Positions 26,147 through 36,260 of a stretch of 64,000 nucleotides of DNA are shown here, piece by piece. Under the pieces are notes generated by a model. It was not told where the DNA came from. It worked only from the letters and a program-made list of their open reading frames with translations, and ran no database searches. This DNA is from Planctomycetia bacterium. GTDB taxonomy: Bacteria; Planctomycetota; Phycisphaerae; UBA1845; UTPLA1. The DNA lies in the NCBI GenBank assembly GCA_015075745.1, contig JABTTW010000001.1, positions 2,728,001 to 2,792,000 on the forward strand, read 5' to 3'. Both the position numbers and the translations under genes were made by a program. Position 1 is the stretch's first letter. Each line of letters starts with the position of its first letter.

Positions 26147-29100
26147 CTAGGCCTTTGACTCGGCCAGCTCGGCGCCGACTTCGCGGAGGAGGCCGGGGGG
26201 GGCTTCCATTGCTTTCTTGCATTTCGGATAGCCGCTGCATCCCAGGAAGCGGCCGGTGCGGCCCATTCGCAGGAGCATCTTCTTCCCGCAATCGGGGCAG
26301 GTGACGTCCGTCTCGATGGGCTTGGCGCGTTCCGGTTGAGGCGAATCGGCTTCGGCCTTCTTCTTTGCTTCACCGCGCAGATTTGAGACTGCCCGACACT
26401 TGCCGCATGAGAAGAAGGGCCCGAAGCGGCCCTGGCGCAGGGTCATTTCGCCGCCGCATTCAAAGCACTTGAGCCCCGATTCCGGCCATGTCTCCACGAC
26501 CGGTCTGCCGGTGAGCGTCCATGCGAATCCCTTCGGCGGGGGCCCCAGGGCGGCGATCTCTTCCTTGGTCAGGCGTTTTACTTTGCCCTTGGCGGTTTTC
26601 GCGCGACTCGTCCGGCCGTTTCCGGCGGCGGTCTCGGGCGGGGCCTCGGGAATCTCGCCGGCGGCCTCCTTGCGCTTCAGTTCGTCCAGCTTCTCCATCG
26701 CCATGGCGTTGCGGCATCGCGGAAACCCGACACAGGAAAGGAACGGCCCGCGACGGCTCTTGCGGATCACCATTTCCCGGCCGCACTTGTCGCATCGGGC
26801 ACCGGCCGATTCCGGCTTCGGCTTCTCGACGAACACGCCTTCGGGCATGGGGCTCGTCGCCTTGCACTCCGGATACTTCGTGCATCCCAGGAATGACTTG
26901 CCCCGGGCCCACTTCACCGCCATCGGGCCGTTGCATTCGGGGCATTTTTCCTTGATGTCCTCGGCGCTGACCTTCTTGAGTGCCACGCCGGCGTCATCGC
27001 ACGGCTTCGTATTCGTGCAGTCGGGATAGCCGGTGCATCCCAGGAAGAGGCCGGACTTGCTTTTGCGAACCATCATCGGCTTGCCGCACTTCTCGCACGG
27101 CTCGGTGCCCATGATCGGCTCGATCGGCTTGCCGTCGCGATCGACGTTGCGAGCTTCCTTGCATTCAGGGTACCCCGTGCAGGCCAGGAAACGCCCGTTC
27201 TTGCCCAGCCGGTAGACCATCGGCTTGCCGCAGGTGCTGCAGACATATTCGCTCGGCTCTGCCCGGACGGCGTCCATCTCGTCGTGCGCCTTGGCGAGCG
27301 CTTCTTTGAAGGGGTCGTAGAATTCGTGCAGGACGTCGTGCCACTCCATCTGCTTGTCTTCGATCTTGTCGAGATCGGTCTCGATGTCGCTGGTGAAGCG
27401 GATGTCCATGATCTTGGGGAAGTGGGCGCAGAGCTTCTCGGTGACGATGTCGCCGCGCGGCGTGGGGTAGAACTTGCGATCCTCCTGCTCCACGTATCCG
27501 CGATCCTGAATCGTCTTGATGATCGCCGCGTAAGTGCTCGGCCTGCCGATGCCTTCGGACTCGAGCGTTTTGACCAGCGATGCTTCGGTGAATCGCGGCG
27601 GTGGGGCGGTGAACTTCTGCTTGGGTTCGATCGCAATCGGGTTAACCGCCTGGCCCTCCTTGAGAGCGGGCAATAGCTGGTCATCGCTGCTCTTGGGCAC
27701 GCCGACCACTTTGTAGAAGCCGTCAAAGGCGAGGACGCGGCCGCTGGCCTTGAAGACGGCCTCGCCCTTGTCGGTCTTTGCGCTGATCAGCACATTGGTC
27801 GAATCCCACTCGGCGGGGGTCATCTGGCAGGCGACGAATCGATTCCAGATCAGCGTGTAGAGCTTGTGCTGCTCGGGCGTCATGTGGCCGCGCATGGCGT
27901 CGGGGGTGCGTGTCACGTCGGTCGGGCGAATGGCTTCGTGGGCTTCCTGCGCCGACTTGCCGCTGGCATAACGATTGGGCTGTTCCGGTAGATACTTGTC
28001 GCCGAACTTGCTGCCGACAAAGTCGCGAACGGTGTGCACCGACTCGGCCGAGAGATTGGTCGAATCGGTTCGCATGTAGGTAATCAGACCGACGTTGCCT
28101 TCGCCGGTCTTGATGTCGATGCCTTCGTAGAGCGCCTGCGCCACCTTCATCGTCCGGCTGGTTGCGAAATGAAGCTGGTTGGCGGCGGCCTGCTGGAGGC
28201 TGGCCGTCGTGTAGGGCGCCGGCGGTTTGGTGCGCGTCCGCTTGGTTTCGATCGACTTCACGGAGAATGCCGGCGCGCTGGCCTGGCGGATCTCTCCGAG
28301 CATCTCGATCTGCTTGAGCCCCAGGTGGGTGTATTGCTCCCAGACGTCTTCAATTACGCGCTCGACGTGAAAGCCCATCGCCTCGGCGATCGGCCGCACT
28401 TCATTGATGGCGCTGGCGAACGATTTCTGGCCCTTCGATCCTTCAAGCCGGCCTTCAGCCTTGAACGGCGAGCCGGAGACCTCGACCAATTCCGCGCCGA
28501 AGCAACCTCGCTCGCCCAGCCAGGCCATACGATCCTTCTGCGTGGGCGGCTCTGAGCCCTTCGCGGTTGGTCGGATGAACGCCTGCCAATCCTTACCCAG
28601 TGAAGCGGCGTTCTTGGCATCGGTGGCGAACACGCCGTCGATGGCCCAGTATTCCTGCGGCTCGAATGCCTTGATGTCTTGTTCGCGATCGACGATCAGC
28701 CGCACCGTGACCGACTGAACCCGTCCGGCCGAGAGGCCCTTGGCGACCTTCTTCCACAGAAGCGGTGAAAGTTCGTACCCGACGACCCGGTCAAGAATGC
28801 GCCTTGCCTGCTGGGCATCGACCTTGGCGATGTCGATGTCGTGCGGCTTGGAGAACGCCTCCTTGATGGCGCCCTTCGTAATCTCATTGAAGATGACGCG
28901 CTTGATTTTTCTGGCCGGGAGGTCGAGGGCCTGGGCAAGGTGCCACGCGATCGCTTCCCCTTCCCGGTCGAGGTCGGTCGCGAGATAGACGATGTCCGCG
29001 TCCTTCGAGAGCTGCAGAAGCTCGTTGATCGTTTTCTGGTGGCTGGGGAGGATTTCGTACACCGGCTCGAAGTTTCGGCCCGGGTCCACCCCGTATTGAT

Positions 29101-29287
29101 GCGGCGGGAGGTCGCGGACGTGCCCCTTTGAGGCTCGAACGACGTAATCCTTCCCCAGATACTTATTGATGGTCTTGGCCTTGGCGGGCGACTCAACAAT
29201 CACGAGTGATTTTCCGCGAGGCTCGCTGCCTGCCTCATCCGACGGATCACTCTTCTTTGTAGACTTTTTGGTAGCCTTCTTGGCCAT
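26147..29287 (-). CDS. topA: DNA topoisomerase I, with six zinc-ribbon repeats
   Basis: A 1046-residue type IA topoisomerase that relaxes negative supercoils. A Lys-rich tail (1-25) precedes the Toprim domain (SLVIVESPAKAKTINKYLG, ATDLDREGEAIAWHL). The catalytic tyrosine is Y404 in LITYMRTDSTNL. The C-terminus has an unusually long series of topo-type C4 ribbons, six in all: CSTCGKPM...CTGYPEC, CEKCGKPM...CTGYPDC, CPECNGPM...CTKYPEC, CDKCGREM...CVGFPRC, CFECGGEM...CGKC and CPDCGKKM...CSGYPKC. E. coli has three. Between ribbons 4 and 5 lies a low-complexity linker. All cysteines needed for zinc appear present; the fifth ribbon has the altered end SCGKCRA. Confidence 0.97.
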   Translation of the reverse strand: MAKKATKKSTKKSDPSDEAGSEPRGKSLVIVESPAKAKTINKYLGKDYVVRASKGHVRDLPPHQYGVDPGRNFEPVYEILPSHQKTINELLQLSKDADIVYLATDLDREGEAIAWHLAQALDLPARKIKRVIFNEITKGAIKEAFSKPHDIDIAKVDAQQARRILDRVVGYELSPLLWKKVAKGLSAGRVQSVTVRLIVDREQDIKAFEPQEYWAIDGVFATDAKNAASLGKDWQAFIRPTAKGSEPPTQKDRMAWLGERGCFGAELVEVSGSPFKAEGRLEGSKGQKSFASAINEVRPIAEAMGFHVERVIEDVWEQYTHLGLKQIEMLGEIRQASAPAFSVKSIETKRTRTKPPAPYTTASLQQAAANQLHFATSRTMKVAQALYEGIDIKTGEGNVGLITYMRTDSTNLSAESVHTVRDFVGSKFGDKYLPEQPNRYASGKSAQEAHEAIRPTDVTRTPDAMRGHMTPEQHKLYTLIWNRFVACQMTPAEWDSTNVLISAKTDKGEAVFKASGRVLAFDGFYKVVGVPKSSDDQLLPALKEGQAVNPIAIEPKQKFTAPPPRFTEASLVKTLESEGIGRPSTYAAIIKTIQDRGYVEQEDRKFYPTPRGDIVTEKLCAHFPKIMDIRFTSDIETDLDKIEDKQMEWHDVLHEFYDPFKEALAKAHDEMDAVRAEPSEYVCSTCGKPMVYRLGKNGRFLACTGYPECKEARNVDRDGKPIEPIMGTEPCEKCGKPMMVRKSKSGLFLGCTGYPDCTNTKPCDDAGVALKKVSAEDIKEKCPECNGPMAVKWARGKSFLGCTKYPECKATSPMPEGVFVEKPKPESAGARCDKCGREMVIRKSRRGPFLSCVGFPRCRNAMAMEKLDELKRKEAAGEIPEAPPETAAGNGRTSRAKTAKGKVKRLTKEEIAALGPPPKGFAWTLTGRPVVETWPESGLKCFECGGEMTLRQGRFGPFFSCGKCRAVSNLRGEAKKKAEADSPQPERAKPIETDVTCPDCGKKMLLRMGRTGRFLGCSGYPKCKKAMEAPPGLLREVGAELAESKA

Positions 29288-30077
29288 GAATTACCTAACT
29301 TTCGATCTGTCCAAACATTAGAACTCGATCGACGCCCGGCCCGGATGGTTCCGGCGTCGCCGATGCGGGCTATATCGGCCGCAGGGGGCGGTCACTCTCC
29401 GACTAATCAAGCCTCCCGGTACCGGAATACCGAGCCCCCGAAGCGTCGGGAACCTAGCACTCCTTTGTCCTGCTTGTCAAATCACAGCCCCCTAGAAAGC
29501 CCCAATTGGCCCTTCGGGCCAAGATTATGGAGATTCAGGACTCGACCGGGGACAACAGACGGCTTGGTTCCCGCCAAGCCATCCGTCCACCGTTTTCCAG
29601 GAGAGGCGAATTCGCACTAAAACGTTCGCTGCGCACCACTTGCGCGATGCCGATTGCTCAAATGCGCCGCGAGCCGTGGCTCGATCGTTCTCCGTGGGCG
29701 CCGAGAGCCGTCATTTCAATACTGAGAATCGATGGGGCACGCACCCTGATTTCGCCATGGCGAATATCAGGCAACATACGCTGCTGGCGCTCGTGAAAAG
29801 GCCGCCGATAGCTACTCAATTCGATGTAGCGAGACACGCTCGCCCAATAGGGAAGGTGAGTTTCTGCCCTTTTTTTCGTTATCATCCTTGTCGGGTGGAA
29901 CCCTCGGGCATGTCGTCCGTAAGAGGATGGGCGAGCGAGCTTCACTTGTCGGGAGGTTTTTTTTTCAATCGTTTGGCAGCCCCGAACGACCGTCGTGCTT
30001 CATATGTTTGCATCGTACTTCGATCCGGCTGATCAGAATTACCCGCTAATAACCGTCTGCTTTCCAAGGAGTTCTCT
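29288..30077. other. Long intergenic region between topA and the metalloprotease gene
   Basis: About 790 bp, divergent between topA (-) and the protease (+). I see no gene. A hairpin, TTGGCCC/GGGCCAA around TTC, sits at 29506-29522 without a T tract, so it is not a normal terminator. The last stretch, TTTCCAAGGAGTTCTCT, is the protease ribosome site. Confidence 0.55.
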
Positions 30078-32885
30078 ATGAACAGCAAGTTACTCGCCTC
30101 ATTCCTGGTCGTCGTTTTGACCGGTGCGGTGCAGGCTCAAATGGACGCCCGTCCGATGCCGCCCAAGGATGCCAAGCCGCCCGCCTCGGCCGGACCGGAC
30201 AAGGAGAAGCCAGAGTTCCCGCCCTTCGATGAAGCAATGAAGGACTACGAAGAAGTGCCGACCGCCGAGTCGCCGTTCTTCCCGCTCTGGTACAACAAGA
30301 AGACCGACTCGCTCCGGGCACAGATTCCCGCAAGCATGATCGGTCAGCAGTTCCTCATCGCCACCAGCATGGCGGGCGGTCCGGTCGCGACAGGCTTCCA
30401 GATCGACCATTTCCTTGCCTACTTCGATCGCATGGACAAGAACCTCGTCCTTATGCGGGTTGATCCTCGGTATGTCGAGGGCGAAGGCGATCAGCCGCTC
30501 TCCGACGTCATCAAGCGCAGCTACGGCGGCGACGACATTCTCAAGTCCATCTCCATCCTCACGATGAAGGGCTCGGACCCGATCATCGACCTGGATTCAT
30601 TGTTCAAAGGCGACTTCTCCGGCATCGGACGCTGGGGCATGGGACAGGTCAATCCGCAGCTTTCCAAGTGGGCCAAGTACAAGACATTCCCGCAAAACGT
30701 CGAATTGACGGCTGACCTCGCCCTGATGAGCAACGGTTCCGGACGACGTACCTTGTTCCATTACAGCCTCTCCAAGATTCCCGAGTCCTCCAAGGGTTAC
30801 AAGCCCCGGCTCGCCGACGATCGCGTCGGTTACTTCATGACCGTGCGCAAGGACTGGACGAAGGAGCACAACGCCAAGACGCTTTTCGATCGCTACATCA
30901 ATCGATGGAGGCTCGAAAAGCGCGACCCCTCCGCCAAGCTCAGCGCCCCCAAGGAGCCCATCAAGTGGTACATCGAAAAAACGGTGCCGCTCAAGTACCG
31001 CCGCTGGGTCAAGGAGGGAATCCTCGAATGGAACAAGGCCTACGAGAAGTGCGGCTTCCTCGATGCCGTCGAGGTTAAGCAGCAGGAAGACTACGACCCC
31101 GAGACAAAGGACCTCGATCCCGAAGACGTTCGCTACAACTTCTTCCGCTGGATCGTCACGGGTCGTGGTTTCGCGATGGGCCCTTCGCGCGATCATCCGC
31201 TCACCGGCCAGATCTTCGATGCCGACATCGTTTTTGACGATGCGATGGTTCGTTTTTACGAAATGGACTATGCCAACATGACCGGCAATGACGAGGCCTG
31301 GCGTCCCTACGAGCCTATTGCCGAGGACTTTTTCCGAACACATCCGGAGTGGTCCTTCAGGTCGCCCTTTCAGAACCTTCTGCCCAATGTCCGCCTCAAA
31401 AACGATCCGGAGGCCGAATTCCGTGCGAACCTGATGAAGCACATGCAGCGCCGCGGTCGCCCCATCTGCGAATGCGCCGCCGGCATGGCTCACCAGATGC
31501 AGTTTGCCGGCATTGCCCTGGAAGGTCAGGGACTGGGCCGCAGCAACGAAGATTTCATGGGACAGGTCATCAAGGAAGTGGTGATGCACGAAGTCGGCCA
31601 CTGCCTCGGCCTGCGTCACAACTTCAAGGCCAGTACCTGGCTTCCCATGGAGGAAATCGAGGCCCACAACGAGGCCGGCGAGGCCAACGTCGGGTCCGTC
31701 ATGGACTACAACCCCTCGATTGTCGTCGCCCGTGACAAGAAGCAGGGCTCATTCACCACCCGCTCCATCGGCCCCTACGACTATTGGGCCATTGAGTACG
31801 GCTACCGCCCCGTCGGCGAGCCCTACAAGAGTGAAGAAGATCTGCTCAAGAAGGTCGCGTCCCGTGTGGCCGAGGCGGGCCTCGACTACAGCACAGATGA
31901 AGACACCATGTGGGTCATTTCTCCTGACCCGCTTTCCAACCGCTTCGACATGGGCCGCGACGTTAAGAAGTTTGCCGAGTTCCAGATCGACGTCGCTGAA
32001 TCGCTCCTCAAGGACATCAGCGAATGGGCGGTCAAGGACGGCGAGTCCTACAACCGACTTCGCCGTGCATTCGGCAGGCTCCTCTTCGAGCGCGGAAGCG
32101 CCTGTGAGTACGTCGCCCGGTTCGTCGGCGGCGTCATCGTGAATCGCGACCACCGCGGGGATGAGGACGGCCGCACTCCCTTGAAGGTCGTCGATGCCAA
32201 GACGCAGCGGGAGTCGCTGGAATTCTGCTGCAAGAACGTCTTTGCCGAGGATGCATTCCAGATCAGCCCCAAGCTCCTCGCCCTCCTGGCGCCCGGCCGC
32301 CATTGGCACTGGGACAGCGACGAATTCTCGCTCCGCGTGGAATTCAACATCCACGATTTCGTGGCCCAGAGTCAGTTCGGCGTCCTCTTCAACCTCATGA
32401 ATCCGTTCACCATCGGTCGCATCCACGACAACCAGCTCAAGTTCCAGGAGGACGACGAAGTCTACACCCTGGCCGGTCACATGACCTCCCTGAGCGATTC
32501 CATCTGGTCGGAGCTTCAGGAAAAGTCCCGAAAGGGCACCGACGAGAAGCCCATGATCTCCAGCTTCCGCCGAAACCTTCAGCGGATGCACGCCGGGATG
32601 CTGATCAACCTGATCCTCAGCGAGCCGGGCGCCATCGTCCCGGCAGACGCAAATGCCATTGCCCGGCTCTGCGCCAAGCGGCTTTCTGATCGGATCGCCA
32701 AGTGCCTCAAATCGGGTGATGCCGACCTCGCCACCGAGGCCCATTTGTGCGACGTGCAGAAACAGCTCGACAAGGTGCTGGACGCCCAGTACTCGATCGG
32801 CGTCTTTTCGGGCGGCGGAGGGTTGTTCTTCCTGGGTAGGACCACCGATGACGCAAAGCCCGTAACTATCTTGCCCAGCCGTTGA
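30078..32885 (+). CDS. Secreted zinc metalloprotease (metzincin-like, DUF5117/DUF4953 type)
   Basis: A 935-residue exported protease. The signal peptide is MNSKLLASFLVVVLTGAVQA. A Pro/Lys-rich stretch is followed by an N-terminal domain with FLIATSMAGG and LVLMRVDPRYVEGEG (DUF5117-like), then PIKWYIEKTVPLKYRRWVKE. The active site is the metzincin motif HEVGHCLGLRH (H504, E505, H508, H514), with a Met-turn GSVMDYNPS about 30 residues later. The C-terminal part (SFTTRSIGPYDYWAIEYGY onwards) resembles the DUF4953 region. This family is common in Planctomycetes and Bacteroidetes; its substrates are not known. AAGGAG lies 6 nt before the ATG, and a strong terminator follows. It forms its own transcription unit. 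Confidence 0.9.
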   Translation: MNSKLLASFLVVVLTGAVQAQMDARPMPPKDAKPPASAGPDKEKPEFPPFDEAMKDYEEVPTAESPFFPLWYNKKTDSLRAQIPASMIGQQFLIATSMAGGPVATGFQIDHFLAYFDRMDKNLVLMRVDPRYVEGEGDQPLSDVIKRSYGGDDILKSISILTMKGSDPIIDLDSLFKGDFSGIGRWGMGQVNPQLSKWAKYKTFPQNVELTADLALMSNGSGRRTLFHYSLSKIPESSKGYKPRLADDRVGYFMTVRKDWTKEHNAKTLFDRYINRWRLEKRDPSAKLSAPKEPIKWYIEKTVPLKYRRWVKEGILEWNKAYEKCGFLDAVEVKQQEDYDPETKDLDPEDVRYNFFRWIVTGRGFAMGPSRDHPLTGQIFDADIVFDDAMVRFYEMDYANMTGNDEAWRPYEPIAEDFFRTHPEWSFRSPFQNLLPNVRLKNDPEAEFRANLMKHMQRRGRPICECAAGMAHQMQFAGIALEGQGLGRSNEDFMGQVIKEVVMHEVGHCLGLRHNFKASTWLPMEEIEAHNEAGEANVGSVMDYNPSIVVARDKKQGSFTTRSIGPYDYWAIEYGYRPVGEPYKSEEDLLKKVASRVAEAGLDYSTDEDTMWVISPDPLSNRFDMGRDVKKFAEFQIDVAESLLKDISEWAVKDGESYNRLRRAFGRLLFERGSACEYVARFVGGVIVNRDHRGDEDGRTPLKVVDAKTQRESLEFCCKNVFAEDAFQISPKLLALLAPGRHWHWDSDEFSLRVEFNIHDFVAQSQFGVLFNLMNPFTIGRIHDNQLKFQEDDEVYTLAGHMTSLSDSIWSELQEKSRKGTDEKPMISSFRRNLQRMHAGMLINLILSEPGAIVPADANAIARLCAKRLSDRIAKCLKSGDADLATEAHLCDVQKQLDKVLDAQYSIGVFSGGGGLFFLGRTTDDAKPVTILPSR

Positions 32886-32960
32886 TAGAGTCTTTCGCGG
32901 GGGTGGCGGACCCGCCCCGGCGCGACCCTTTATCCGCCTGCCGGACTCCGGCAGCAAATG

Positions 32961-32993
32961 CCCCGAACCCCTCTGGGTTCGGGGCTTTTTTTT
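32961..32993 (+). terminator. Intrinsic terminator of the metalloprotease gene
   Basis: CCCCGAACCC paired with GGGTTCGGGG (10-bp stem, 4-nt loop CTCT), followed by C and eight T. It is a textbook Rho-independent terminator. Confidence 0.95.
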
Positions 32994-33031: not shown

Positions 33032-33059
33032 TTGACATCGCAGCCGAGAAGATTAGAGA
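33032..33059 (+). promoter_or_regulatory. Possible promoter of the acidic-protein gene
   Basis: A perfect -35 TTGACA (33032-33037) is followed after 16 nt by TAGAGA (33054-33059), a weak -10. It lies just past the terminator and upstream of two palindromes. Confidence 0.4.
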
Positions 33060-33070
33060 ATTGCGCTTTG

Positions 33071-33235: not shown

Positions 33236-33652
33236 ATGACACACAACGAAAACACAACAGCCGACTCCATGAATCTCACCGACCACGAAAATCTCGTTGA
33301 AGTGATGTTTGCCCGTAGTACCGCGGAGGCAAACGATTGCGTGCGGGCCCTTATTGAAAGCGACATCCCGGCGCGCATGGAAGGAAGCGGTCGCCCCGGA
33401 GCCGGCTACGGCATCGCCGTGCTCGTTCCGCCGGACCGAATGATCCTGGCCTCGGAGCTTCTTGCGGCCAAGGCCCACGACGACGAAGACGACGAGGACG
33501 AGGAGAGCGAAGACAGCACCGACGAAGAAGTGGATGACATCGACGACGACGAGTTCGACGACGATGAGGACGATCTGGACGACGACGAAGACGAAGATGA
33601 TGACGACGACGAAGATGAAGACGATGAATTCGAAGTTGGATACGACGATTAG
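33236..33652 (+). CDS. DUF2007-like domain with a polyacidic tail
   Basis: A 138-residue protein in two parts. Residues 18-78 look like a small alpha/beta domain of the DUF2007 type (NLVEVMFARSTAEANDCVRA, ESDIPARMEGSG, IAVLVPPDRMILASELL), a fold thought to bind small ligands or act in signalling. Residues 82-138 are almost wholly Asp and Glu, with a few Ser, Thr, Val and Phe. The tail is long for the size of the protein and should be disordered and metal- or polycation-binding. AGGAG lies about 9 nt before the ATG. It leads a run of five small plus-strand genes; the next encodes an Arg-rich protein. Confidence 0.75.
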   Translation: MTHNENTTADSMNLTDHENLVEVMFARSTAEANDCVRALIESDIPARMEGSGRPGAGYGIAVLVPPDRMILASELLAAKAHDDEDDEDEESEDSTDEEVDDIDDDEFDDDEDDLDDDEDEDDDDDEDEDDEFEVGYDD

Positions 33653-33769
33653 CCGATAGGTGAGGAGATGCCCTGCGGCCGCGCAATTTTTGCCGGTCGC
33701 GTTCGCCAACGGCCGGGCCGGGGCACGCATCGAACCTCGCCCAGTCAGCTCGCCGAGAGGACGTGACCT

Positions 33770-34114
33770 ATGGATACGCCCGCAGCAACCACCCCTCGGC
33801 CCAATTCTGACGCCCGCGAAAACGCTCAGGACAGACGAGCCGACAATCGACGTGAGTCCCCCGTGGACCGCCGTGCAGGCCTTGAACGCCGCCGTGGGCC
33901 GGGCAGACGCCGCTCGGATTCCCGCCGAAGCGCCGAGGAAGGCGAGCTCAATTCCGAGCAGTTTGAGTTCGTCATGGCTATGGACGAATACAAGCGGGCC
34001 AACAAGAAGCCGTTCCCCAGTTGGACCGAAGTCCTCGAAGTGCTAAAATACCTCGGATACCGGAAGGTCGCCGATGTGGGAGAGCACGTCGATCGGCCCG
34101 CCACGGAAGATTGA
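33770..34114 (+). CDS. Arg-rich small protein with a conserved C-terminal segment
   Basis: A 114-residue protein. Residues 15-54 are Arg-rich with a repeated D-R-R / R-R-x pattern (DRRADNRRESPVDRRAGLER, then RRGPGRRRSDSRRS), strongly basic and likely disordered. Residues 60-100 form a compact segment, QFEFVMAMDEYKRANKKPFP then SWTEVLEVLKYLGYRKVA, of a kind I recall from planctomycete hypothetical proteins. The basic region could bind nucleic acid or the acidic tail of the protein encoded just upstream; both ideas are inference. AGAGGA lies about 8 nt before the ATG. Confidence 0.65.
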   Translation: MDTPAATTPRPNSDARENAQDRRADNRRESPVDRRAGLERRRGPGRRRSDSRRSAEEGELNSEQFEFVMAMDEYKRANKKPFPSWTEVLEVLKYLGYRKVADVGEHVDRPATED

Positions 34115-34144
34115 CCCTCTTTCCCGATGCCGGGGGATTCAGGC

Positions 34145-34801
34145 ATGCCGACCGACAATTACGAGGTCGTCGACGTCCTCATGCTCGTGGGCAATATTGT
34201 CCCGATCGCCTTCTATTTCCTCATCCTCGGTCTCGTCAACAGCCACGCCAGACCCTGCCTCATTACCAGCCGATCCGACTTTCTTGCCCTCACCGGCGTC
34301 CTCCTGCCCGTTTTGCTCTGGCCGGTTCCGGAGTTCGTTCGATCGGGCATGTACGTCCCGCTTGCGGGCGGCATGCTCCTGGCTGCTACGGTTTTCTATT
34401 ATCTCCTTCCCAAGCGCGATGCGGGATTCGTGATTTACAACATCTCACTTCGCCAGTGTGTTCGGTTGATCGAGCAGGCCACGACGCGACTCGACCTCGC
34501 CGGACGTCGTCAGGGAAACTGCTGGATGGCCGACGACGGATCGCTGCGCATCGAGCTGCGCCCGTTCCCCTTGCTGCACAACGTCGCGTTGCACGTTGAG
34601 CCGACCGACAGCAAGAGCGAGGCCCTCGTTCCGCTGATCGGCATGGAGATCGACCGGCAACTGTCCACGGTTTCGCAGCTTCCCTCCAACATGAGCGCCG
34701 GAATGGTCCTCGCCGGCGTGACCCTGCTGCTCCTGCCGATGTGGATGGTCAGCCGCCACGTTGACGACCTCGTGGACGCGATGTTGCACCTCTTCGGCTG
34801 A
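34145..34801 (+). CDS. Membrane protein of unknown function
   Basis: A 218-residue protein with three N-terminal membrane segments (VLMLVGNIVPIAFYFLILGL; FLALTGVLLPVLLWPV; VPLAGGMLLAATVFYYLL), a soluble domain (about 100-180) with mixed strands (GNCWMADDGSLRIELRPFP), and one C-terminal membrane segment (AGMVLAGVTLLLLPMWMV). I do not recognise the family. The soluble domain lies on the same side as the loop after helix 3, probably cytoplasmic. A GGGGGAT string 7 nt upstream supports this start; an in-frame ATG six codons earlier is the alternative. It follows the Arg-rich gene by 30 nt and is probably co-transcribed. Confidence 0.7.
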   Translation: MPTDNYEVVDVLMLVGNIVPIAFYFLILGLVNSHARPCLITSRSDFLALTGVLLPVLLWPVPEFVRSGMYVPLAGGMLLAATVFYYLLPKRDAGFVIYNISLRQCVRLIEQATTRLDLAGRRQGNCWMADDGSLRIELRPFPLLHNVALHVEPTDSKSEALVPLIGMEIDRQLSTVSQLPSNMSAGMVLAGVTLLLLPMWMVSRHVDDLVDAMLHLFG

Positions 34802-34963
34802 TGCACCAAGCGCCTCCGGCGCGACTCCCATCCCCTCCGTCTCCAGCCTTGCGCGCCAGTCATTCAATCCCGTCCTTTGGTTTTGGGAATCTCCTCGTTA
34901 GAATCGCGGTTTCAGTGGGAGACGAGTTTTTCGATCCGTCTGGTGGATCGTGGAATCCGTGCC

Positions 34964-35365
34964 GTGAACCGAGCCAACTCGATCAAGCTCTCCATCACCT
35001 GCGTCCTGTTCCTGGTAGGGGGGCTCCTGGTGATGAAGTCTCTTTCCAACCCCGACGCCGAGCCGGTCGCCACAGACGCCCGGCCGGTGGACCTTATCTG
35101 CACCAAATGCGAGAAGCATTCGACGATCAGTTATGACGAATACGCCAAAGCGCCCATGAAGAGCGCCGCCGGGAACTTGGGCCGCGTCGCCGGTGCAGGT
35201 CGAACGCTGGCGGCCCAGGCTCGCCGTGCCGATTTCGTGTGCCCCGCATGTGGTGAAAAGTCGGCCCAGCCGGCAAGCAAGTGCGCCAGGCATTCGTTAT
35301 ACTATCCTCGATACACCGACACCGGCGCCAACGGACAATGCCCGCAGTGCGGCGTCGGAGGCTGA
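34964..35365 (+). CDS. Membrane-anchored zinc-ribbon protein
   Basis: A 133-residue protein from the GTG at 34964: a short basic N-terminus, one membrane helix (IKLSITCVLFLVGGLLVM) and a soluble part with four Cys/His knuckles, CTKCEKH, CPACGEKS, CARH and CPQCGVGG. These would make two zinc ribbons. A TTG start 29 codons upstream is possible but adds residues without a recognisable feature. Function unknown; its place before a pseudopilin gene and its topology would suit an envelope assembly or quality-control role, which is a guess. Confidence 0.6.
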   Translation: MNRANSIKLSITCVLFLVGGLLVMKSLSNPDAEPVATDARPVDLICTKCEKHSTISYDEYAKAPMKSAAGNLGRVAGAGRTLAAQARRADFVCPACGEKSAQPASKCARHSLYYPRYTDTGANGQCPQCGVGG

Positions 35366-35408
35366 TCGACACGTCCAGGAAGCGGCGAGCAGACAGGACA
35401 ACGGGCTC

Positions 35409-36260
35409 ATGCGACGATCCGCGTTCACCCTGATCGAGCTCTTGATGAGCATCGCCATCATCTCCGTGCTCATCGGAATCCTCCTGCCCGCGCTCAGCGG
35501 CGCGAAGGAGGCCGCCAACGTGGCCTATTGTCTGTCCAACTTCAGCACACTCACCAAGACCGCGGAAATGTACATGGAGGATCTGAACAAGCGAACCCTG
35601 CCGTGGTACGTCGCTGATTTCAATTTTCGCGGCATCACCACGGTCAGCGAATACAGCTACGGCGGTTTCCAGCACACGACGCCCAGCCCGGATCCGAGAT
35701 TCAGAATGTTGGACACCTTCATCCTGAAGACCAGCGAGCGGCCCTTCAACAAGTACATTGCCAAAGGCGCCGACGGTACGACGCCCATCAAGTCTTATAT
35801 TTGCCCCTCGGACAAGTCGTGGATCACCCCGCTCGTGGGCGACAGGCTTCCCGAGGAATTATCCCCGACGGACGCATACTCATCATGGCAGGTTCAGGGG
35901 AACAGCTTCGCCATCAATTGGTACTGGCTCAACGGTCCACCGTGGAACGGTGAGGAGGGCTGGTACGGAAACCTTGCGTCTTTCAGTCTCACCGGTGAGA
36001 AGATGCTCTCCAGGAAGACCGGTGGGGAGGCCGCCAAGTTCGTGCTCTTCACCGAGAGTTGCATGAACTACTACATGTACGATGCACGGCCGCGCAGTGG
36101 AAACTACGGCGAGAGCAGAATTCAGAAACTGGGCCCGGGCTGGCATCGCAAGTTTTCCACGTATGCGCTCGGCTTCCTCGATGGTCACGCCGAGTTCCGC
36201 TACGTCGACACGCGCTACTCCGACGATACCGGCTTCGACATCTGGCCGACCATTCGCTAG
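35409..36260 (+). CDS. Type IV pilin-like / pseudopilin (planctomycete prepilin-type N-terminus)
   Basis: A 283-residue protein. The N-terminus is [20 protein letters not shown] then LIGILLPALSGAKEAAN, a class III-like prepilin signal with E at +5; the residue before the F is Ala instead of the usual Gly. The globular part carries ICPSDKSW and FLDGHAEFRYVD, as in the large H-x9-DG family of planctomycete pseudopilin-like proteins. The start was chosen so the short basic leader sits directly before the hydrophobic helix; a longer frame has no sense upstream. It converges on pilC at the end of the pilus operon, 26 nt apart, so it may be exported or assembled by that machine. It is not clearly the major pilin. 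Confidence 0.85.
   Translation: MRRSAFTLIELLMSIAIISVLIGILLPALSGAKEAANVAYCLSNFSTLTKTAEMYMEDLNKRTLPWYVADFNFRGITTVSEYSYGGFQHTTPSPDPRFRMLDTFILKTSERPFNKYIAKGADGTTPIKSYICPSDKSWITPLVGDRLPEELSPTDAYSSWQVQGNSFAINWYWLNGPPWNGEEGWYGNLASFSLTGEKMLSRKTGGEAAKFVLFTESCMNYYMYDARPRSGNYGESRIQKLGPGWHRKFSTYALGFLDGHAEFRYVDTRYSDDTGFDIWPTIR

Follow-up and report, generated by a model that had tools for sequence, protein, structure and literature searches.

Introduction

Chromosome organization in planctomycetes is poorly known. A study of the condensed nucleoid of Gemmata reported unidentified DNA-bound particles and two HU proteins, with no histones found at that time (PMC3440768), and HLp-type FtF histones, which wrap DNA, have since been reported to occur in Planctomycetota (PMC12701072). 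In other bacteria, small acidic proteins act on a nucleoid-associated protein instead of DNA, namely the DNA mimics DMP19 and DMP12 of Neisseria and HI1450 of Haemophilus, which bind HU (PMC5722371). In eukaryotes, disordered acidic regions handle DNA-packaging proteins: the acidic domain of APLF binds histones through aromatic anchors (PMC9328677), and prothymosin alpha chaperones H1 (PMC7661507).

Here we describe a locus from a 5.0 Mb genome whose relatives, judged by similarity of one of its proteins (B), belong to the Phycisphaerae (Planctomycetota). It was analyzed within a stretch of 64,000 nucleotides, hereafter the window, in which gene A, encoding a protein with a long acidic tail, precedes gene B, encoding a small protein with an Arg-rich block. 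We liken A to DMP19, DMP12, and HI1450; however, those proteins are folded and carry DNA-like charged surfaces, whereas the charge of A resides in a probably disordered tail and A shares a locus with B as its partner. The tail is also similar to the acidic regions of APLF, which likewise contains aromatic residues, and of prothymosin alpha, although these are eukaryotic and no sequence relation to A is claimed. The folded part of A belongs with DUF2007 (PF09413, putative prokaryotic signal-transducing protein), to which the long acidic tail is an addition. Regarding B, some homologues from other classes join its conserved segment to Lys/Ala-rich tails, as in H1-like and Lys-rich nucleoid proteins, but the segment constitutes a separate family and the tail in Phycisphaerae is an almost invariant Arg motif. 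Moreover, B has a net charge of about +1, in contrast to +53 for H1, and is no recognized histone. HLp-type FtF histones are gene neighbors of A and B in 33 loci, but they form no part of either protein. No description of the A–B pair was found among open-access texts.

Organization of the locus

Genes A, B, C, D, and the pseudopilin gene E follow one another in this order on the + strand. All four open reading frames from A to D proposed by an earlier sequence-only reading of this DNA were found, and their conservation excludes a chance origin. Upstream of A, the region 26147–32885 contains an opposite-strand topoisomerase I-like gene (topA) and a DUF5117/DUF4953 metzincin gene. Since topA-like and metzincin genes were present upstream of A in 11–12 of the compared loci, the window counted, this flank is also conserved within the window's family. 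The metzincin gene is followed by a strong intrinsic terminator at 32960–32985 (+ strand), composed of an 11 bp stem with 9 G-C pairs and then TTTTTTTT, which sets it apart from gene A. A promoter-like sequence, TTGACA-18-GAGAAT, is located ahead of gene A at 33032–33061 (+ strand) as a consensus match only.

Gene A and its acidic tail

Gene A (33236–33652, + strand) encodes a protein of 138 aa composed of a DUF2007-like domain and an acidic tail, with a net charge of −52 and a C-terminal end reading DDEDDEDEESEDSTDEEVDDIDDDEFDDDEDDLDDDEDEDDDDDEDEDDEFEVGYDD. The tail (33479–33649, + strand) comprises 57 aa, of which 46 are Asp/Glu, in agreement with its earlier description as a nearly pure Asp/Glu stretch of about 55 residues, and is mostly predicted to be disordered. 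In the AlphaFold2 model, residues 20–87 formed an ordered beta-alpha-beta-beta-alpha domain, and the tail was of low confidence and probably disordered. By composition and predicted disorder, A thus presents a long acidic disordered region with scattered aromatics.

The protein of the window itself gave no match in Pfam, PF09413 included, whereas 44 of 58 homologues of A matched PF09413 at E ≤ 0.1 (best 5.6e-7); the window's A is too divergent for this model. When the model of A was used in a fold search, 2HFV, which we take to be the solved structure representing DUF2007, was retrieved at rank 7 (prob 0.99, E 0.039). The ordered part also resembled ring-building domains of PrgK/EscJ, so the fold alone is not diagnostic of DUF2007; small folds of this type are common, and the likeness does not point to a function in the envelope. 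The DUF2007-like assignment made from sequence was therefore right at the family level, given the matches of the homologues and the 2HFV fold. The only PF09413 match in the window's genome was located away from A, at 1498251–1498448 of contig C1 (G000).

The 46 acidic residues of the tail are encoded by 23 GAC, 10 GAA, 8 GAT, and 5 GAG codons; as all four GAN codons are mixed, a simple DNA repeat was ruled out. Pooled A tails, in which all four GAN codons were likewise present, consisted of 50% D, 25% E, 6.4% F, 5.9% L, and 2.4% Y, with Phe, Leu, and Tyr together accounting for 14.7% and ranking next after Asp/Glu. Asn, His, Gly, Ala, and Val, which are one base away from Asp, were jointly rarer than Phe/Leu/Tyr. 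The residue bias and the codon mix suggest that selection acts on the tail as a stretch of protein that is both acidic and aromatic.

Gene B and its conserved segments

Gene B (33770–34114, + strand) encodes a small protein of 114 aa distributed phylum-wide. It contains an Arg-rich block, DRRAGLERRRGPGRRRSDSRRSAEEGE (residues 33–59; 33866–33946, + strand), followed by a conserved C-terminal helical segment (residues ~60–102; 33947–34075, + strand). Most of its 19 Arg residues are located in residues 21–55, and the net charge of the whole protein is only +1 because Asp/Glu alternate with Arg. B therefore carries a basic block and is not a basic protein; the Arg-rich region and the conserved C-terminal segment noticed in the sequence-only reading are real.

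Across 124 Phycisphaerae loci, the R-R-R-G-P-G-R-R-R motif was conserved at 73–100% per position, with a nearly invariant R-R-R-G-P-G-x-R core. B proteins of this class show the RRRGPGxR block and AEEG, and then the C-terminal segment, with the consensus EFxxAxDxYKRxxxRPFPTWSEVLEVIxxLGYRKV. In the structural model, helices were predicted at residues 62–78 and 85–94, a block with pLDDT above 90, and the Arg part was of low confidence. The C-terminal segment was detected in 122 of the 294 Planctomycetota genomes sampled. Homologues from other classes bear Lys/Arg-rich tails of differing sequence, located either N- or C-terminal of the segment, and some of these tails are H1-like (KKAAKK, PAKAKKS).

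Membership of B in a known family was rejected, as a Pfam scan of 83 members gave no convincing family, an NCBIfam scan of the window protein gave nothing convincing, and a PDB sequence search gave no match; no known DNA-binding domain was found with Pfam or the PDB. Comparison of the B model with PDB folds gave no significant match (best E 1.8). The best folds were histones (histone H4), but with E values of 1.8 or worse, TM scores below 0.4, and an rmsd of 7–9 Å for most of the histone matches, so that a histone fold for B was rejected. A likeness of the C-terminal segment to a LexA-like helix-turn-helix, spotted by eye, is backed by no profile.

Pairing of A and B across Phycisphaerae

A first survey comprised 61 genomes, that is, the window's genome and 60 relatives. 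B was present in 59 of them, including all 47 of good quality, and nearly always as a single copy, while a single-sequence search detected A in 14, always directly upstream of B. Phycisphaerae loci were then collected with B as bait, the sampling following similarity to Phycisphaerae B; this set includes MAG contigs that may be misbinned. With an iterated profile of A, roughly half of the loci proved to have a DUF2007-like gene immediately before B, and every A found in this way had an acidic C-terminal stretch extending 27–105 residues past the domain, with an Asp/Glu content of 21–76%. In most of the remaining loci, the gene directly upstream of B encoded an unrelated or unrecognizable N-terminal part joined to an acidic tail that was as long or longer. 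After deduplication, 116 distinct evaluable Phycisphaerae loci were counted, in 99 of which B was immediately preceded, on the same strand, by a gene for an acidic-tailed protein (61 with the DUF2007 domain and 38 with the tail only, the domain being undetectable), and the other 17 had no acidic gene upstream of B. Because the tail persists across loci and the domain does not, the conserved feature is the acidic tail before B; the DUF2007 domain is either optional or diverged beyond recognition.

Comparably acidic tails were also nearly absent from other positions. Under a strict threshold for an acidic tail (the final 35 aa having a net charge of at most −18), 61 of the 116 positions upstream of B qualified, whereas among the 9,524 other ORFs of this DNA only 1 did; at −12, the numbers were 89 positions and 6 ORFs, respectively. 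The pairing of A and B across Phycisphaerae is thus well supported, and the acidic and Arg-rich neighbors singled out in the sequence-only reading form a conserved unit. That reading had named a lack of co-occurrence in related genomes, or of the charged tails in orthologues, as what would speak against it; for A and B, the genes co-occur and the tails are retained. In the sample of loci from other classes, none of 67 had an acidic ORF beside B. Given these and the 17 Phycisphaerae loci without an acidic gene, B does not universally need A. On the tree of B, which is poorly resolved because B is short, the DUF2007-plus-tail label changed approximately 10 times and the tail-only label 9 times; absence likewise changed about nine times. 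The charge of the A tail and that of the B block were not correlated (rho −0.04, n = 104), and generic charge balancing between the two proteins was rejected. Three contigs labeled as Kuenenia stuttgartiensis or Actinomycetes carried a Phycisphaerae-type B (L156, L165, and L214), with A in L156 and L214; they are probably misbinned or misnamed MAGs.

Histone and HU genes near B

In 33 Phycisphaerae loci (32 distinct), an HLp-type histone gene encoding ~60–110 residues was situated ~0.8 kb ahead of B, in reverse orientation and so divergent from A–B. The protein of one of them (L137:4943–5128) matched PDB 9QT0, the DNA-wrapping HLp of Leptospira, with an E value of 4.6e-17 over residues 4–60, and the remaining histone loci were assigned by their match to this protein. 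Many of these histone genes encode Lys/Ala-rich N-terminal extensions (MAKKKAAKKPAAKK...). A was present in all the loci with an adjoining HLp-type histone gene, and in six relatives with a histone gene elsewhere, no acidic gene was found beside that histone, which indicates that A is linked to B rather than to the histone. The genomes searched from the window's own family yielded no HLp-type histone. A Pfam search with one HLp-type histone protein gave no match, so annotation may overlook such genes.

In other classes, 10 of the 67 loci, belonging to four families, had an HU gene no more than ~1.4 kb away from B. The genomes checked hold only 2–3 HU genes, and by a rough estimate ~0.1 such cases would be expected by chance. 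Taken as a whole, the neighbors of B point to chromatin, although evidence from gene neighborhood is indirect and the recurrence of the histone may largely reflect shared ancestry.

Genes C, D, and E

Gene C (34127–34801, + strand; the start may be at 34145) encodes a membrane protein for which four TM segments are predicted. Its four hydrophobic segments and the lack of a match in Pfam and the PDB agree with its earlier description as a four-helix membrane protein of no known family. C was present in 29 of the 61 genomes, adjoining B in all but one (G026), and in the larger set it was beside B in 27 of 118 loci, limited to a subset of families. It is a lineage-restricted addition to A–B. Gene D (34964–35365, + strand; start GTG at 34964 or TTG at 34877) encodes an N-terminally anchored zinc-ribbon-like protein. 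The single N-terminal hydrophobic segment and the several CxxC pairs fit the membrane-anchored zinc-ribbon protein described earlier; the zinc-ribbon matches themselves were sub-threshold. D was found in 17 of the 61 genomes and at the B locus solely in the window's genome, and its homologues adjoin pseudopilin genes homologous to gene E (35409–36260, + strand; N-terminal methylation motif), away from B. D thus pairs with E, separate from A–B.

From the neighborhoods of C and D it follows that the window holds two units, namely A–B (with C in some families) and D–E. A conserved neighborhood of all four genes, as the sequence-only reading had anticipated, was not borne out, and a four-gene module A–D was rejected on the basis of the neighborhoods in the 61 genomes and the pairing of D with pseudopilin genes. 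Pairs of the D–E type recur in the window (34964–36260) and in L076, L077, L079, and L092, sometimes as two copies close together and off the A–B locus.

Proposed function of A–B and alternative explanations

We propose that B is nucleoid-associated and that A acts on it as an acidic chaperone or as a DNA-mimic antagonist, the two forming a conserved chromatin unit of two genes in the class Phycisphaerae, an interpretation to which we assign roughly even chances. It builds on four computed results: the pairing of A with B, the conserved tail, the invariant motif, and the presence of histone or HU genes nearby. The Arg-rich RRRGPGRRR block would enable B to bind nucleic acid, most probably DNA of the chromosome, and the C-terminal helical segment of B would dimerize or contact another nucleoid protein. 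A and B would be made from one transcript, and the acidic, aromatic-studded, disordered tail of A would bind the Arg block of B in place of DNA or, alternatively, a nucleoid protein acting together with B. In this manner, A could keep B soluble, deliver it, or strip it off DNA, with the DUF2007-like domain serving as a replaceable regulatory head. Weighing against this proposal are the net charge of B, unlike that of H1, the lack of a recognized DNA-binding domain and of a significant fold match, the uncorrelated charges of A and B, the loci of Phycisphaerae and other classes in which B has no acidic neighbor, and the failure to find an HLp-type histone in the searched genomes of the window's family. 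A more specific version, in which Phycisphaerae possess a histone-chaperone-like system where A loads or strips the Arg-rich B, plus the HLp histone in the many lineages where the genes adjoin, is decidedly more tentative. If true, the chaperone-like A would be a bacterial parallel of the acidic histone chaperones. The B family is widespread in the phylum, has neither a profile nor a solved relative in the libraries searched, and adjoins HU or histone genes in several lineages; in Phycisphaerae its acidic partner is near-obligate and retains the tail, whereas the folded domain is present in some lineages and undetectable in others. Should B prove to be a nucleoid protein, chromatin chaperoning in bacteria could be tested with two proteins of fewer than 140 residues.

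Arg-Gly-Pro-Gly-Arg blocks bind RNA just as well as DNA, and so do Lys/Ala tails. B might accordingly be RNA- or ribosome-associated with A as an acidic chaperone, and the nearby histone and HU genes would then reflect a housekeeping region instead of a role in chromatin. The missing DNA-binding fold would suit this explanation; nevertheless, two unrelated chromatin proteins adjoin B, the histone in Phycisphaerae and HU in other classes, and ribosomal or RNA-processing genes were not prominent beside B in the neighborhood clustering, which makes it rather unlikely in our view. It is also improbable that A is a DUF2007 signaling protein whose tail provides solubility only and that B, unrelated in function, is simply co-transcribed. 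Acidic tails can aid solubility, and the absence of covariation between the charges of A and B would be expected in that case, but the tail persists in the 38 of 99 pairs in which the domain is undetectable, and, within the DNA examined, strongly acidic tails hardly occur anywhere but directly before B.

A different role for the tail would be in cis, with its acidic run destabilizing the ribosomes that translate it (intrinsic ribosome destabilization) and thereby tuning the translation of B by magnesium or ribosome state, similar to the acidic leader ORFs that precede genes for Mg2+ transporters. Acidic runs are reported to destabilize bacterial ribosomes, and a gene for a Mg2+ transporter is reported to be under the influence of uORFs (PMC9718836, PMC8092293). 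The short gaps between A and B in many loci agree with such regulation, as do the tail-only versions, which have no recognizable N-terminal domain and in which the acidic run still immediately precedes B. However, the run is C-terminal, is 30–100 residues long in many loci, keeps its interspersed F/Y/L residues, and is fused to a conserved folded domain in 61 loci; these features suggest that A is a working protein, and we hold regulation in cis to be a poor prospect. Least probable by far is the envelope-associated module tied to the adjacent pilus genes that the sequence-only reading had suggested for A–D. The genes of the window run in the same direction with no strong terminator from A to E, and C and D are predicted membrane proteins. 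Nonetheless, most B loci lack an adjoining C, the homologues of D lie next to pseudopilin genes instead of B, and the B loci of relatives showed no recurrence of pilus genes. Neither A nor B displayed a feature of membrane proteins or of export, and the genes that do recur beside B are those for a histone or HU.

Variants of B in other loci

Several departures from the common form of B were observed. In one group of homologues from other classes, a conserved RRR-x-IDPTTCERDY block replaces RRRGPGRRR; this group comprises L245, L246, L251–L256, L259, L260, L292, L296, L299, L304, L321, and L326. Many genomes of one family (f38) contained two B-like matches. Finally, a tandem duplication of the B segment inside a single ORF was present in two loci, L134 (G049) and L282 (G319).
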